A DNA stretch of 64,000 bases from Planctomycetaceae bacterium. Lineage in GTDB: Bacteria > Planctomycetota > Planctomycetia > Planctomycetales > Planctomycetaceae. The position numbers and the translations under genes are program-made. Below the pieces are notes generated by a model. The model was not told the DNA's origin, ran no database searches, and saw only the letters and a program-made list of their open reading frames with translations. Shown one piece after another: positions 1 through 6,785 of the stretch (position 1 is the stretch's first letter; the number at the start of each line of letters is the position of its first letter). The DNA lies in NCBI GenBank assembly GCA_016795145.1, contig JAEUII010000179.1:1-64000 (forward strand), read 5' to 3'.

Positions 1-1175
1 CCTGGAGCAGTGAAGTGCTCGGAGAGCATGTCAACTATGTTTGGCAGTCGCTCGGGCCAACAGTGTATGAAGGGACAGCCGGAATCTCAGACTTTCTGGC
101 TGAGCTGTTTGTGCTAAGTGGAGAGCGACTGCATAGAAACACGGCCCTTGCTGCAATGCAGCATGCGTTGGAGCACAGCAGAGAACCGGGCGATCGCTTT
201 GCCGCTGGTGTATTTTCGGGAACATTGGGGATTGGCTACGCGGCGATTCACGTGGGACTGCGGTTAGGAGCCCAGGAACTTGTCGACAACGGCCATATCG
301 CAATGAAACGCGGGGCGACAGTTTTCCATCCCAAACAGGAAATTGATGTGATTGGAGGCAGCGCCGGTGCGATACCACTATTAATCGAGATCGGCAGAAA
401 GTTTGATTCTCTTGAATACCTGGACCTCGCTACACAGCACGGCGAACTATTACTGAACCGTTCAACTCGCCGGCTAATCAAAGGGACAACCGGATCAAAC
501 GCGAATAGCTATGAGCGATATTGGTCGAATCCTTCGTTTGGTCGAGATGGACTCACAGGATACTCACATGGGAACTCCGGCTTTGCAATTGCTTTGCTGG
601 AGTTGTTTCATTTGACTTCAGATGAAAAGTACAGGGTCGCAGCAAGAGAATCGCTGGAGTTTGAGCGCAGATGGTTTGATTCGACTCGGCAAAACTGGTG
701 CGATCTTCGGGTTGCTGCGGGGACTCCACCTGTTTCCTGTTCCTGGTGCCATGGTGCTCCAGGGATCGGCCTTGCGCGTGTGAGAATGCAGGAATTACTT
801 TCGGATGATCCGTCGATCGAAGCTGAAATCCAAATCGCCTGTTCTACGACTCTTCGCTCTCTTGAAGACCATTCCGCAGTTGGACGCAATTTTTCCCTGT
901 GCCATGGACAGATGGGAAACGCAGCAACGTTGATGGCGGTGAAGTCGGCTGAAATGAGGGCCGCAGGGGAGGAAACTGTTAAGCAAATGCTGACGTTTGC
1001 GCTGAACCAGCATGCGAATTCCCATCTACCCTGGATTTGCGGGACTCAGGACGGTCGCATGACCCCCGGTTTGATGCTTGGGACTGCTGGTATTGGATCC
1101 GCTTTACTGTCTCACTTTCACGCCAACTCGGATGGAACCGGGATGAAATGGCTCATGCTGAGGTCTGACCAATGA
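1..1175 (+). CDS. LanC-like cyclase domain, 5' end outside the window (probably end of a LanM)
   Basis: The frame is open to the left edge; the GTG at 15 is only the first start codon inside the window. The visible ~386 residues form a complete LanC-type barrel. Counted from that GTG: YEGTAGI near 18, YSHGNSG at 183-189, WCHG at 244-247 and LCHG at 295-298. By comparison with NisC the zinc ligands would be Cys245, Cys296 and His297. The family adds Cys thiols to dehydroalanine or dehydrobutyrine to close lanthionine rings. The ending PGLMLGTAGIG is typical of class II LanM enzymes, so a dehydratase domain may lie upstream of the window; a stand-alone LanC is the alternative. No certain precursor peptide was found beside it. 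Family call is firm, class is inference. Confidence 0.85.
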   Translation, partial: WSSEVLGEHVNYVWQSLGPTVYEGTAGISDFLAELFVLSGERLHRNTALAAMQHALEHSREPGDRFAAGVFSGTLGIGYAAIHVGLRLGAQELVDNGHIAMKRGATVFHPKQEIDVIGGSAGAIPLLIEIGRKFDSLEYLDLATQHGELLLNRSTRRLIKGTTGSNANSYERYWSNPSFGRDGLTGYSHGNSGFAIALLELFHLTSDEKYRVAARESLEFERRWFDSTRQNWCDLRVAAGTPPVSCSWCHGAPGIGLARVRMQELLSDDPSIEAEIQIACSTTLRSLEDHSAVGRNFSLCHGQMGNAATLMAVKSAEMRAAGEETVKQMLTFALNQHANSHLPWICGTQDGRMTPGLMLGTAGIGSALLSHFHANSDGTGMKWLMLRSDQ

Positions 1176-1603: not shown

Positions 1604-2710
1604 ATGTTGTCAGTAGATCACAAATATGTCAACGAAATTCGTCTGGCAACTGAGTTCGCAAAGAGGCGAGATGTTAATTCTTCTGTGCCACTGCAACAGC
1701 TCAGGGATTCGCTGCATCGAGCAATGCGTTTAGAGGCTTCCACAATTCCCCCATACTTGGTGGCGGGGTGGAGCATTCAGAAGTCCGAAGGGTTTCAGAA
1801 TCTGGAGATTCGCGACCTGATCCTTGGCATTGCCCGAGAGGAAATGCTGCACATGATGGCCATTATGAACATCATTGCAGCGCTGGGAGAGCCTCCGAAG
1901 ATTGCCACAAATGACATTGTCTTGTGCTGGGGTGAGGATCAATTGCCGGTTGGTGGAGGCGTGATCCCAATGCTTGCTCCGTTTTCGGAGACGCTCTTGA
2001 CGACGCTGTTCATGAAAATTGAAGAGCCGGCAGATCCCGTTCACTACGTCGTCCGTGAGAACTTTCTGGTGGCCCATCAATTGGACCATGGCACGATCGG
2101 CGAATTCTATGCTGCTCTGATTGAGTTGATTCGTTCGTTTGAGGTGGATCCGTTCCTTGGTGGAGCGCGCTACCCTCAGGTCAGGTTGGATGCTGACCCC
2201 CGAATAGGCCTTATCGGGCATGCGCCGATTGATGATTTTGAAGTCAATAGCAGTTCTCAGGCTATCAGGCTGCTTGAGTGGATTGTTGGCCAGGGGGAGG
2301 GTACACCGAAAAATCCGCTAGACGGAGATGGGTTGCCGGCGCACTACTACCGCTTCGCAGAAATTTACAAGAAGGGGAGATTGGTTGCAGCCAATGATGA
2401 TCCGCTCGGGTACGTGTATGATCGCGTGAGCGCTCCGATCATCTGCGATTACACAAAAGTCTCTCAGTTCGCCCCTAATCCCAAAATGAGAGACTTCACG
2501 GAAGGCTCCGTGGAATGGAGAGGGCTGAAAAAATTCAACAACTCCTATACGACAATGTTCAAAAACCTTCAGGAATTCTACAGCAGTGGAAATACTCAAT
2601 TCATCACTGACTCAGTTAATTCAATGAATACGATGGCTGATGTTGGAAATCGCCTCATCACAGGAGTTCATCCCGCGGTCTGTCCATCGTTCGAGTGGCT
2701 TCCCGTGTAA
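1604..2710 (+). CDS. Ferritin-like (VioB/RebD-type, PF12902-like) protein
   Basis: 368 residues from ATG 1604. The pattern matches the ferritin-like domain found in VioB/RebD-type enzymes: EASTIPPY (Glu44), REEMLH (Glu80, His83), GTIGEFY (Glu167), IVGQGEG (Glu232) and an HYYRF motif (His247). These Glu/His positions are the likely metal ligands of a four-helix bundle. VioB and RebD couple indole-pyruvate imines, but this protein lacks their long N-terminal part, so that reaction is not implied. It is the first gene of a block with the LodA-like gene 32 bases downstream. A role as a diiron oxidase in building the quinone cofactor, or in handling the peroxide product, is inference. No signal peptide is seen. 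Confidence 0.75.
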   Translation: MLSVDHKYVNEIRLATEFAKRRDVNSSVPLQQLRDSLHRAMRLEASTIPPYLVAGWSIQKSEGFQNLEIRDLILGIAREEMLHMMAIMNIIAALGEPPKIATNDIVLCWGEDQLPVGGGVIPMLAPFSETLLTTLFMKIEEPADPVHYVVRENFLVAHQLDHGTIGEFYAALIELIRSFEVDPFLGGARYPQVRLDADPRIGLIGHAPIDDFEVNSSSQAIRLLEWIVGQGEGTPKNPLDGDGLPAHYYRFAEIYKKGRLVAANDDPLGYVYDRVSAPIICDYTKVSQFAPNPKMRDFTEGSVEWRGLKKFNNSYTTMFKNLQEFYSSGNTQFITDSVNSMNTMADVGNRLITGVHPAVCPSFEWLPV

Positions 2711-2742
2711 TTTCTTCCCCAAAATTATGGAAAGTAGCTATC

Positions 2743-4005
2743 ATGAGCCTTGCTGATGTTGCCTGTTTCAAGATCCACCCAGCCATAGGTGTCGCAAGAA
2801 TTGCAAACAACGAGAGCTGGTTCGAGTTTTTTGATGCTCATGCGAAGGCGTTTTCTCCACCGCAGGACTACATGTCGGTGGACGCATCCGACAGCAGTCA
2901 TCCACAGAAGCCACGGATGAAGCGGCAGGCTGTTCAGTTCAAGGTATTCGCTTACAAGAGTAATGGCGACCTGATTGGAGAAGTGAGCCAGCTGTTCCCG
3001 GATTTGCGGGTGCATTGGACGGCCGAAGTCGGCAATCGAAAAGTGCATAATTACACATCGAAGCGTGGCACGGGGATTTTGGACCCAGTGAACGCGAAAG
3101 CAACGGCATCACTGCCTTCAGACACAGCCAGTCTCGATGGTATCAACCCATGGGATCCGGGAGCGACGGTCCATTTGGGGTCTATTAGCGGTACAGGATT
3201 GTTCATTCCAGCGAAGGGTGGGGTGACACGGAAATCCCAGAATTCGCAAATCGACCGTTATCCCGCCAACGAGTCCGGGGCACTCGAGTGTAGCGATTCC
3301 ACCTGTGACGGTTCGATCTCGGTGACACTGTTTGACCAGACTGGAACTCCCGTTAACCTCCCAGTCATTGGCGCATGGATTGTGTCGGCTCCGTCGAAGC
3401 ATTGTCTGACGCTCACGCCAGACAAGGCGGAGGAAATGGCAGAGAACTTTGGGGACTTTTTGCCGAGCAACAACAATGCAAACCGAGATTGGATCAAATC
3501 CACTAAGGCGCTCCTGGGCATCGTAGGTGACATTGCCGACCCGACTGGTCTGGACATCCCGATGATGGAAACCATGAATGCGGATTACAATCCCGGAATG
3601 GAAGTCAATATTGAAGGAGTTGGTCGGCTCGAAAACGGCATTCATCCGACGGACTTTTTCTATTCGCGTGGGACCGGTCACATTGGCGCCAATGAGGTCA
3701 GGATTCAGCCAAAGAGTGAGCGTCCTAATGCCACTCAACCTGGTCAGATCACGAGTGGGCTCTGTTCCACGTGGCAGGGAGACATGGTTGCCTGCCTAAA
3801 CTACTGGACAGCGGAGAATCCGAATCGAGCGTTCGACTTGCATGGCGATGAAAAGATTGTCATCTATCGGGAAAGCAATCCCAACGCGACAATGAACACT
3901 CCCGAAGAGATCAACGCGAATATGGATTTCAGAGGCATCGTTGAACACGAATCTGTTGGCAACGACATTCGACTGAACCTCGTGTACGATCCCAACCGGC
4001 CTTAA
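2743..4005 (+). CDS. LodA/GoxA-like CTQ-dependent amino acid oxidase (short form)
   Basis: 420 residues from ATG 2743, chosen because the upstream in-frame start at 2695 lies inside the previous gene. The N-terminus (IHPAIGVARI at 11-20) and MKRQAVQFKVFAY at 59-71 are hallmarks of the LodA family, which oxidatively deaminates lysine or glycine with a cysteine tryptophylquinone. The signature stretch has PGQITSG, then Trp344-Gln345, Asp347, Cys351 and Trp355 followed by AENPN. It resembles the WQ-D-C then W-P-A-P-N pattern of LodA, with Cys351 and Trp355 as likely CTQ precursors. At 420 residues it is well below the family's usual 600-700. Extra cysteines occur at 8, 183, 188, 221 and 341. No secretion signal is visible. 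The substrate cannot be predicted. Confidence 0.8.
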   Translation: MSLADVACFKIHPAIGVARIANNESWFEFFDAHAKAFSPPQDYMSVDASDSSHPQKPRMKRQAVQFKVFAYKSNGDLIGEVSQLFPDLRVHWTAEVGNRKVHNYTSKRGTGILDPVNAKATASLPSDTASLDGINPWDPGATVHLGSISGTGLFIPAKGGVTRKSQNSQIDRYPANESGALECSDSTCDGSISVTLFDQTGTPVNLPVIGAWIVSAPSKHCLTLTPDKAEEMAENFGDFLPSNNNANRDWIKSTKALLGIVGDIADPTGLDIPMMETMNADYNPGMEVNIEGVGRLENGIHPTDFFYSRGTGHIGANEVRIQPKSERPNATQPGQITSGLCSTWQGDMVACLNYWTAENPNRAFDLHGDEKIVIYRESNPNATMNTPEEINANMDFRGIVEHESVGNDIRLNLVYDPNRP

Positions 4006-4009
4006 TCTG

Positions 4010-5410
4010 ATGACTCGTCCCGTAATCTCTAAGGCAGAAACCGCCCCGAAGCACCCTGCTTTCCATGTAATCAAGCATGGTCAGAGAGTGTTTTTGTTCG
4101 TGGTAGCAACCGGACAGCTTACCGATCTCAATGATTTGGCTGAGCGCGAAGGGCGGGCGTTTTTTGCCAATCCGTCTGATTATGAATTACTCCCTCCAGA
4201 ACCTGGGAATGAGTGTTTTCCGCATCCTGAGGTCAGTGCACCCCCAAAGTCTGTTTCACTTCAATCGCTCTCGCTGGCAATTGCCAACAAGTGTAATTTG
4301 GGCTGTGCATACTGTTATGCAGAACAAGGGACGTTTGGCGGACGTTCGGACAATATGTCGGTTGTGATGGCTAAAGCAGCGGTCGACCGACTCTTCAAGG
4401 ATGCTCCACGCAATCAAACAATCACACTGGCGTTTATGGGCGGCGAACCGTTGTTCAACCGTCAGACGCTGCATGAAACCACAGTTTACGCTGCGGAGAA
4501 GTCTGTATCCGAAAAGCGTGAAGTTGCCTTCACGATGACGACAAACGCTACTCTCATTCGACCGGAAGACGTTGAATTGTTTCAGCGATATCGCTTCCAT
4601 CTGACGATCAGCATTGATGGGATCGGCGAGTCGAATGATGCATTGCGTCCTGACCGATCAGGGCGAGGGACATACGAAAGAGTGAAGGAGAAACTCCAGG
4701 TCCTTTTTGCCGTTCCACAGCGGGTATTTCAAGTCTCAGCCAGAGTGACAGTCACTCCCAGAAATATCAATCTCACTGATACTTTCCGGGGACTGTTGGA
4801 ACTGGGATTCGATTCGATTCAGTTTTCGCCATTGCTGAAGTCGCCTGGCAGTCAGGATGAGATGTCTGTCAATGACTTTGACGTCCTGTTGCAGGAGTTG
4901 GTGGCCTGCGGCGAATTGTTTCGAGAAGGATTTCGAAATCGCCAGCTGCTTCCGCTTCTCAATGTCCTGAATACGCTTAAGCGAATACACGACTACCAAC
5001 CGGAGAACTATCCCTGCGGTGCTGGTGGCGGCTATATGGGTGTCTCTGCAGATGGCAACTTATATGCGTGTCATCGGTTTGTCGGTGACGAAGTCGGTCA
5101 TTTGGGTAACGTGACATCCGGTGTCTTTGCGGAGGCCCAGGAGCACTGGCTGACCGACCGGCATCTGAATGCTCAGGGCGCGTGCAACTCTTGCTGGGCA
5201 AGGAATCTCTGTAGCGGTAGTTGCCATTATGAGGTGATCAGGCGAGGCAGGCCTGCCTGTGATTACATTCGCGGATGGATTTATTATTGCCTGATGCTTT
5301 ATGTTGATTTGCTCGAAACCGACTCCACGGCATTGACACTGTTGTTGGGCAATTCAGACCGTAACCATGGAGACGTCGCGAAAAACGATGGCACAGGAAT
5401 TGGATACTGA
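4010..5410 (+). CDS. Radical SAM/SPASM peptide maturase (QhpD-like)
   Basis: 466 residues, starting 4 bases after the LodA-like stop. An N-terminal segment (FHVIKHGQRVFLFVVATGQL, about 18-37) resembles the leading part of peptide-modifying SPASM enzymes. The radical SAM cluster motif is Cys95-x3-Cys99-x2-Cys102, followed by GGEP at 144-147. The SPASM region has Cys336, Cys354 (in YACHRF), Cys392, Cys395, Cys401, Cys405, Cys417 and Cys427, enough for two auxiliary 4Fe-4S clusters. Such enzymes make thioether or C-C crosslinks in peptides; QhpD makes Cys-Asp/Glu thioethers in the CTQ subunit of quinohemoprotein amine dehydrogenase. The likely substrate is the LodA-like protein just upstream. 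The family is firm, the substrate is inference. Confidence 0.85.
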   Translation: MTRPVISKAETAPKHPAFHVIKHGQRVFLFVVATGQLTDLNDLAEREGRAFFANPSDYELLPPEPGNECFPHPEVSAPPKSVSLQSLSLAIANKCNLGCAYCYAEQGTFGGRSDNMSVVMAKAAVDRLFKDAPRNQTITLAFMGGEPLFNRQTLHETTVYAAEKSVSEKREVAFTMTTNATLIRPEDVELFQRYRFHLTISIDGIGESNDALRPDRSGRGTYERVKEKLQVLFAVPQRVFQVSARVTVTPRNINLTDTFRGLLELGFDSIQFSPLLKSPGSQDEMSVNDFDVLLQELVACGELFREGFRNRQLLPLLNVLNTLKRIHDYQPENYPCGAGGGYMGVSADGNLYACHRFVGDEVGHLGNVTSGVFAEAQEHWLTDRHLNAQGACNSCWARNLCSGSCHYEVIRRGRPACDYIRGWIYYCLMLYVDLLETDSTALTLLLGNSDRNHGDVAKNDGTGIGY

Positions 5411-6785
5411 TGTTGTAGTCATTGGTGGTGGACCTGCCGGAGCTGCCTTTGCTCGGAAGCTGGCAGAATTTGGACACCAAATAGTCATTCTTGAAAAAGC
5501 TGCGTTTCCGCGTCCACATGTCGGCATCTGTCTTTCCGATGCGACAGAAATGCTGCTCGATCAGTTCAATGTGAGAGACGCAGTTCACAGTGCCGGCTTT
5601 TTTCGGCGAAAATCCGTGCTTGTCAAGTGGGGTACTGATCAGCCATTGATATCTGATCAACCGGGGCTTCACGTCGACCGAGGCGTCTTTGATCGTATTC
5701 TCCTGGAAAGCGCCAGGCGTGCGAGTGTTACGACCATTCAACCTGGGCGTTTCTTGACGGCCAGGCGTCGTCTTGGCGGATGGCAAGTGATCGTGGAGAA
5801 TGGTCAACGAACTATCAACCTTCAGTCCCGTTTCCTGGTGGATGCGTCCGGGCGGGCCAATGCCTTTCCGGGGCAGCAAGTTCGCTACGCCCCGCCACTG
5901 TTTGCCTTGCACGCCACGTGGCGGCTTTGCAATCGTCCAGACTATGATGGCATTATGGAGTCTGGCAAAAACGCCTGGATGTGGATCGCGTGTCTTGCGG
6001 GGCAGGAGGCCCAGATCTCGGTGTACACTGATCCTGCGCTTCTGGCGAGTCGCGGAAAGCGAAGTGTCGGGTCGTACTACGAATCCATGCTGGATGAATT
6101 CTCACTCATTCGGCATTTCCATCGAGATGAAATTCTCGGGGAGATTCAGTGTTGTGATGCGTCGAGCAGGCACTCTTCTCACCCTGTCGGGGCAGACTTT
6201 CTCCGTGTAGGAGATGCAAATCTGAGCTTGGATCCTATGGCTTCGCAGGGCGTGCATTTGGCGCTGACCTCTGGGATACAAGCGGCCATTGTGGTCAATA
6301 CGATTCTCTGTTTTCCGGAACTCGCTTTGATTGCCCAACGTTTCTATCAAGAGCGTCAGGAAGAGCGAGTTCGCCAGTTTCGACATCGCACGGCATCTGA
6401 GTATCAAAGGGTCGCCTGTTTCAGCAGCGAATCATTCTGGCAGGAACGTGCCATTAATGCCGTGCGGCCACCTCCAGTCCATGCGGATAATCGCTTGCCT
6501 TTGACGCCGTCGCAAACCCTTGAACTGAGTCCCCACGCGCAGTTTCTTGAAACGCCCGTCATGAAGTCGGATCGCATTTCCCTCGAACCAGCCCTTCACC
6601 ATCCTCGCCTGGATCGTCCAGTTGCCTTTGTCGGTGAAACAGAGGTGTGTCCACTGTTGCGAGGGCTGAATGGAAATCATACGGTGGGCGCAATACTTGC
6701 TGCATGGGAGTCAAAGATCCCAGGAAACCTTGGGCTTCAGATTATCCAATGGTTGTGGGAGCATGAGGTACTCGTTGCTCGATAG
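5367..6785 (+). CDS. FAD-dependent monooxygenase (LodB/QhpG-like) with PqqD-like C-terminal domain
   Basis: 472 residues. The start overlaps the end of the radical SAM gene by 44 bases; ATG 5388 is an alternative start. The FAD fold is shown by GGGPAG at 20-25, a VDASG motif at 158-162 and GDANLSLDPMASQG at 282-295, as in halogenase and hydroxylase-type flavoproteins. LodB and QhpG belong to this group and hydroxylate the Trp that becomes CTQ. The last ~60 residues (about 413-472) read as a small winged-helix domain like PqqD, the recognition element of peptide-modifying enzymes. The overlap suggests translational coupling and one operon with the three genes upstream. Halogenation is possible but less likely in this context. 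Confidence 0.8.
   Translation: METSRKTMAQELDTDVVVIGGGPAGAAFARKLAEFGHQIVILEKAAFPRPHVGICLSDATEMLLDQFNVRDAVHSAGFFRRKSVLVKWGTDQPLISDQPGLHVDRGVFDRILLESARRASVTTIQPGRFLTARRRLGGWQVIVENGQRTINLQSRFLVDASGRANAFPGQQVRYAPPLFALHATWRLCNRPDYDGIMESGKNAWMWIACLAGQEAQISVYTDPALLASRGKRSVGSYYESMLDEFSLIRHFHRDEILGEIQCCDASSRHSSHPVGADFLRVGDANLSLDPMASQGVHLALTSGIQAAIVVNTILCFPELALIAQRFYQERQEERVRQFRHRTASEYQRVACFSSESFWQERAINAVRPPPVHADNRLPLTPSQTLELSPHAQFLETPVMKSDRISLEPALHHPRLDRPVAFVGETEVCPLLRGLNGNHTVGAILAAWESKIPGNLGLQIIQWLWEHEVLVAR

Follow-up and report, generated by a model that had tools for sequence, protein, structure and literature searches.

A widespread four-gene cassette with a LodA-like protein, a QhpD-like radical SAM enzyme and a QhpG-type flavoprotein

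The cassette and its distribution

The stretch analysed here (the window) comprises the first 64,000 nucleotides of the 85-kb Planctomycetaceae bacterium contig JAEUII010000179.1, part of a draft genome, and carries, close to its start, a cassette of four intact plus-strand open reading frames (ORFs). These encode a ferritin-like protein, a short protein resembling LodA, a radical S-adenosylmethionine (SAM) enzyme of the SPASM type and a flavoprotein monooxygenase (FMO), arranged with gaps of 32 and 4 bases and an overlap of 44 bases (Table 1); ORF calls on the window confirmed this layout, which had been described in a first-pass annotation of the sequence. Judged from their sequences, the genes appear to make an amino-acid or amine oxidase with an active site formed from its own cysteine and tryptophan, the cofactor cysteine tryptophylquinone (CTQ). 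Two routes to CTQ are known: LodA and GoxA are matured with one flavoprotein, and quinohemoprotein amine dehydrogenase (QHNDH) with a radical SAM enzyme and a flavoprotein. Among the profiles that the annotation had proposed for searching, PF12902 matched the first gene product at 154 bits (gathering score 22.3) and LodA_N the second; the SPASM match on the third was weak, and Pfam gave no PqqD match in the cassette proteins. The length of the LodA-like protein is counted from the ATG at 2743, and a GTG lies further upstream at 2695.

Table 1. Features of the cassette and its upstream neighbour in the window
Feature	Position	Strand	Details
PF12902 ferritin-like protein	1604..2710	+	368 aa; Pfam E 6.9e-45
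Short LodA-like protein, proposed CTQ-bearing oxidase	2743..4005	+	420 aa; LodA_N E 6.1e-13
Motif L-C341-S-T-W-Q-G-D347-M-V-A-C351-L-N-Y-W355	3760..3807	+	proposed thioether C341-D347; proposed CTQ C351-W355
Radical SAM/SPASM maturase, QhpD/PapB-like	4010..5410	+	466 aa; radical SAM E 1.4e-17
QhpG-type flavoprotein monooxygenase	5367..6785	+	472 aa; NF049967 271.6 bits, cut-off 240
LanM lanthipeptide synthetase, C-terminal cyclase part	15..1175	+	cut by contig start; TIGR03897 profile 588-928 of 932

The LodA-like protein was searched against 392 genomes of the phylum, and one further genome (G154, locus L018), from another Planctomycetota family, had all four genes in identical order, with a LodA-like protein of 767 residues compared with 420 in the window. 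Two radical SAM sequences were scanned against approximately 85,000 species, each represented by one genome, which yielded 170 relatives. The 80 top-scoring ones were retrieved along with flanking sequence and, together with the window and L018, make up the 82 loci used for the linkage counts. The 80 fetched loci belong to Bacteroidota (35), Pseudomonadota (23), Acidobacteriota (7), Planctomycetota (4), Actinomycetota (3), Cyanobacteriota (2), Verrucomicrobiota (2), Myxococcota (2) and Gemmatimonadota (1), with one locus lacking an assignment. The first-pass annotation had staked its reading on the radical SAM gene being kept beside this type of LodA, and the LodA-like gene indeed lies within 1.5 kb of it in 79 of the 82 loci; the flavoprotein gene accompanies it in 81. 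The remaining cases are explained by truncated contigs or loci or, in L018, by an ORF that was called too long; in L038 the LodA-like gene is about 7–8 kb away and runs off the end of the locus. PF12902, as a separate protein or as a fused domain, occurs in 76/82 loci, which is 76 of the 78 that can be assessed: L048, L073 and L086 are tiny contigs and L083 starts just before LodA, leaving L079 and L098 as the sole loci that look truly devoid of it. The four-gene set is real and widespread rather than a chance arrangement, because these genes turn up again in a second Planctomycetota family and beside 80 related radical SAM genes from nine phyla. No further partner gene common to several phyla was found around the cassettes in the neighbour survey of the 80 loci.

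The architecture of the LodA-like protein varies. In several lineages it is split into an N-terminal piece of about 460–600 residues and a CTQ-bearing C-terminal piece of about 250–290 residues. Fusions of the ferritin-like domain involve the C-terminal piece in Ruegeria (L025) and the N-terminal piece in L058 and L074.

The LodA-like protein and its additional cysteine

The PF17990 (LodA_N) match in the window protein is over the cut-off and extends over just positions 1–91 of the 213-position profile. The long LodA-like proteins of other cassettes lie mostly at or under the Pfam cut-offs, and LodA_C is weak in all 13 long relatives and below the cut-off in the one shown. Alignment to LodA was made through PDB entry 3weu, in which the CTQ residues Cys516 and Trp581 are the last residue of PWQADFFNC and the second tryptophan of YWWPPQ, respectively. 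Asp512, Cys516 and Trp581 of LodA correspond to Asp347, Cys351 and Trp355 of the window protein, where the sequence reads GLC341STWQGD347MVAC351LNYW355; the alignment and a regular-expression search thus both place the CTQ cysteine and tryptophan in the window protein. A different assignment, in which the motif CVGGxFYPGIE was taken as the CTQ cysteine site and the cysteine as lost, was wrong, since the PDB alignment puts Cys516 in PWQxDxxxC. Across 18 relatives, with identities to the window protein down to 17%, 28 columns are invariant; they include Cys341, Trp344, Gln345, Asp347, Cys351 and Trp355, and Cys341 and Cys351 are the only invariant cysteines. Beyond this set, 14 intact loci have WS, WT or WH where the others have WQ.

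The AlphaFold model of the window protein has a mean pLDDT of 60, being good over most of residues 1–217 and poor at residues 341–420. In a fold search with this model, GoxA (Z 19.7) and LodA (Z 17.5; family range 16.4–19.7) scored far above the PDB matches that came next, beginning with the QHNDH alpha subunit at a middling Z of 7.6. As modelled, the window protein has the LodA/GoxA fold, with a C-terminal part of low confidence.

In QHNDH, QhpD makes three thioethers, Cys7–Glu16, Cys27–Asp33 and Cys41–Asp49, and CTQ is formed from Cys37 and Trp43. The substrate, QhpC, has the arrangement C27-x5-D33-x3-C37-x5-W43 (PDB chain 1jmx_G), and the LodA-like proteins of the cassettes have C-x5-D-x3-C-x3/4-W. 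QhpC has been described as carrying three Cys-to-Asp/Glu thioethers, Cys41–Asp49 being named, with Cys37 and Trp43 as the CTQ precursors and Asp33 as the counterpart of the conserved aspartate of LodA and GoxA (PMC7876137). The cysteine six residues before this aspartate, at the position that Cys27 occupies relative to Asp33 in QhpC, is present in all 80 motif-bearing radical SAM loci. The contrast set comprised 32 LodA homologues with no such radical SAM gene of their own nearby, drawn from this phylum, from Alpha- and Gammaproteobacteria and from genomes in which a cassette is present as well. The cysteine is missing from all 32, the residue usually being alanine or glycine, and it is likewise absent from LodA and GoxA. 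L033 and L037 hold both kinds of LodA gene a short distance apart, with a separate flavoprotein for each kind, and both kinds conform to the rule. A further pair, the second cysteine of a C-x-C motif and the aspartate of an RPD motif at position +6 from the CTQ tryptophan, resembles Cys41–Asp49 of QhpC. In 73 loci both members are present; the other 7, which constitute the short clade to which the window belongs, have neither.

Maturation enzymes and the ferritin-like partner

The closest NCBIfam models to the window's radical SAM enzyme are PapB (NF047865, 264 bits, cut-off 340) and QhpD (TIGR03906, 260.8 bits, cut-off 453), and the enzyme misses both cut-offs. Both models represent enzymes that form Cys–Asp/Glu thioethers (PMC9413430, PMC7876137). 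The cysteines of the radical SAM and auxiliary (SPASM) clusters, C95/C99/C102 and C336, C354, C392, C395, C401, C405 and C417, are identical in 23 of 23 sequences, namely 22 cassette members and the QhpD of Stappia.

The window flavoprotein aligns with positions 1–413 of the 423 in the NCBIfam QhpG model, and the LodB and GoxB models fall far below their cut-offs. Cassette flavoproteins score 236–322 bits on the QhpG model over nearly its full length, one relative lying just under the cut-off at 236.2. By contrast, those encoded next to ordinary LodA genes have their best scores on the GoxB or LodB model and stop before the QhpG C-terminal region. In an unrooted FMO tree LodB stood apart from the cassette FMOs, and QhpG was represented by a single long-branched row, so that its group was not placed; the classification as QhpG-type uses the hidden Markov model (HMM) scores and not the tree. 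The combination of a LodA scaffold with QhpD- and QhpG-type maturases, as initially proposed, therefore stands at the level of sequence, with the flavoprotein being QhpG-type by HMM score instead of LodB-like.

Flavoproteins of the window clade carry HVGICL (HVGICL or HVGICI in L019, L022 and L024), in place of the HVGESL of other cassette members. This variant, the length of 420 residues against about 750 in the long types, and the location at the edge of the contig, next to a truncated LanM gene, could mark the window copy as a decaying remnant. We regard that as highly improbable, given that a whole clade in other phyla (L019–L024) has the short form, mostly with the motif variant, and that the window genes have open frames throughout and retain every cluster, CTQ and ligand residue.

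The reading that we favour, with a probability of about 0.65, is that the cassette encodes a LodA-type CTQ oxidase matured in the manner of QHNDH. The radical SAM enzyme would bond the sulfur of Cys341 to the methylene carbon of Asp347, as QhpD does with Cys27 and Asp33 of QhpC, and by analogy with QhpG the flavoprotein would hydroxylate Trp355, probably twice. Cys351 would then join the oxidized Trp355 to give CTQ, a reaction suggested by the conservation of both residues. The finished protein is predicted to oxidize an amine or an amino acid, and would release H2O2 should it act as LodA or GoxA does. In the long-type relatives, the second cysteine of C-x-C and the aspartate of RPD may form a second thioether like Cys41–Asp49 of QhpC.

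The first-pass annotation implied that the radical SAM enzyme makes the CTQ crosslink itself, here Cys351–Trp355; in that reading Cys341 would be structural or a relay. The enzyme does accompany this LodA type wherever it is found, yet in LodA and GoxA a flavoprotein serves CTQ formation in the absence of any radical SAM enzyme, QhpD makes thioethers separate from CTQ (PMC7876137), and the nearest characterized relatives form Cys–Asp/Glu bonds. Radical SAM formation of CTQ would also leave without explanation an invariant cysteine seen solely with the enzyme, and we consider it very unlikely. The radical SAM step should instead be the extra Cys–Asp bond, because QhpD makes Cys–Asp/Glu thioethers and the cysteine at D−6 is invariant. 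The enzyme might alternatively introduce some other modification into the LodA-like protein, such as a bond to another acceptor, an α-carbon thioether or a C–C bond, with the flavoprotein alone making CTQ. SPASM enzymes are chemically diverse, and the missed PapB and QhpD cut-offs leave room for such chemistry; the Cys–Asp spacing equal to that of QhpC and the complete co-occurrence make it fairly unlikely.

Several points weigh against maturation in the QHNDH manner. Linkage, conservation, residue correspondence and fold are what we observe, and we infer every chemical step. The structural model falls below a pLDDT of 50 exactly at residues 341–420, the Cys–Asp region. The survey covers the 80 top-scoring of the 170 radical SAM relatives, and the counts that correlate the cysteine with the radical SAM gene are not independent: they may reflect few ancestors, or one ancestral event, since the cassette LodA proteins may form one clade. 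The HVGICL variant means that the flavoprotein chemistry of the window clade could differ.

The putative di-metal ligands of the ferritin-like protein, E44, E80, H83, E140, E232 and H247, are unchanged in all 58 relatives compared, a pattern consistent with a di-metal site. Its AlphaFold model (pLDDT 87) has PDB entry 3hl1, Caulobacter CC_0557, as its best match (Z 24.7), and no VioB structure was among the matches listed in the fold search. PF12902 genes also adjoin LodA genes without a radical SAM neighbour, in L154 and L164, and fusions of LodA homologues to catalase-type or iron-redox domains are known from elsewhere (PMC4417212). For these two reasons the protein most likely works with the oxidase or its H2O2 rather than in crosslinking; it would be a di-metal partner, for example for H2O2 or for onward chemistry of the product. 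The protein is not specific to the radical SAM route. It might still be a maturation oxidase, acting as a tryptophan hydroxylase or final quinol oxidase and so as a third maturase. An enzyme for the first tryptophan hydroxylation, thought to be autocatalytic in LodA and GoxA (PMC7876137), is conceivable, and the invariant ligands and near-constant presence of the protein would suit such a role. Its occurrence with LodA proteins that have no radical SAM enzyme, the two cassettes without it, its fusion to LodA pieces, which suits a working subunit, and the catalase-type fusions elsewhere render a third maturase unlikely.

Taken as a whole, the first-pass annotation was largely right on the parts and their linkage, and was amended at the radical SAM step and in the specificity of the ferritin-like protein. 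The third route to CTQ that it proposed is one that we likewise infer from the sequences.

Relation to known systems and genomic context

The LodA/LodB and GoxA/GoxB systems of Marinomonas and Pseudoalteromonas share with the cassette the scaffold fold, the D-x3-C and tryptophan CTQ residues and an adjacent flavoprotein, but they have neither the radical SAM gene nor the cysteine at D−6, and their flavoprotein is of the LodB type, without the C-terminal QhpG region found in the cassette. The QHNDH system (QhpC, QhpD and QhpG) of Paracoccus and Pseudomonas has a QhpD-like SPASM enzyme, a full-length QhpG-type flavoprotein and the identical C-x5-D-x3-C spacing followed by a tryptophan; its substrate is the 80-residue QhpC, whereas that of the cassette is a LodA-type protein with a ferritin-like partner. 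No sign of QhpA, QhpB, QhpE or QhpF was seen around the cassettes, where no other gene is common to the phyla. The PapB ranthipeptide maturase resembles the cassette enzyme, but it acts on a small precursor of a ribosomally synthesized and post-translationally modified peptide and the cassette partner is a full-size protein. Among PF12902 proteins, CC_0557 and the domain in VioB share the fold and ligand set; CC_0557 is listed without a function, and the VioB model, of about 1000 positions, gives just 22 bits on the window's ferritin-like protein.

QhpC itself (PF08992) had no match in 9 of the 10 cassette genomes searched, the Stappia genome having a separate qhp locus (L099/L125), and no more QhpC sequences were found in 178 Gammaproteobacteria. 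In a single comparison with hhalign, the QhpC profile aligned to the CTQ segment of canonical LodA and the C-terminal W-x-x-LG-x-V-x-P stretch that follows it, with a probability of 74 and an E value of 2.7e-5; against the cassette LodA the motif aligned without significance. This alignment, and the QHNDH alpha subunit as next-best fold match, form the basis of a tentative proposal, to which we give somewhat less than even odds, that QHNDH and the LodA family have one origin. QhpC would be a freed LodA CTQ segment, and the cassettes, with their QhpD/QhpG-type maturases and, in some, a LodA split into N-terminal and CTQ-bearing C-terminal pieces, would be intermediates between the two.

The surroundings of the cassettes differ among lineages. 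In about 15 Bacteroidota loci, including L026, L039 and L071, genes that by eye resemble those for ECF sigma factors, FecR and SusC/SusD lie downstream, which suggests that these cassettes are tied to nutrient uptake. Glaciecola amylolytica has a cassette of the short window type (L019) as well as one of the long, Bacteroidota-like type (L066), and the presence of both types suggests horizontal transfer. Cassettes are also plasmid-borne, on a plasmid of Mycetohabitans endofungorum (L166) and a conjugative plasmid of Bradyrhizobium barranii (L165), and one lies between insertion sequence (IS) elements; in the public records of plasmids, the parts are annotated as hypothetical protein, radical SAM protein, tryptophan 7-halogenase and ferritin-like protein. 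In the window, the LanM fragment upstream of the cassette probably belongs to a separate gene cluster, because the neighbour survey found no counterpart near the other cassette loci.

In agreement with the first-pass annotation, which named no described system with all four parts, a search of open-access full text, with subscription journals and preprints outside its scope, found no description of one. The scaffold and the maturase types are known, and their widespread combination appears from the sequences to be new. If the proposed maturation is true, two CTQ routes that have been studied separately draw on one toolbox, and with the QHNDH toolkit on a LodA scaffold the purpose of the Cys–Asp thioethers becomes directly testable. 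A natural experiment is offered by LodA proteins that have or lack the extra cysteine, the two kinds even being neighbours within a single genome, and the cassette gives a precise residue-level prediction. It would also point to a large set of unrecognized probable quinoproteins, whose subunits are recorded as 'hypothetical protein' and whose maturase is recorded as 'tryptophan 7-halogenase'.

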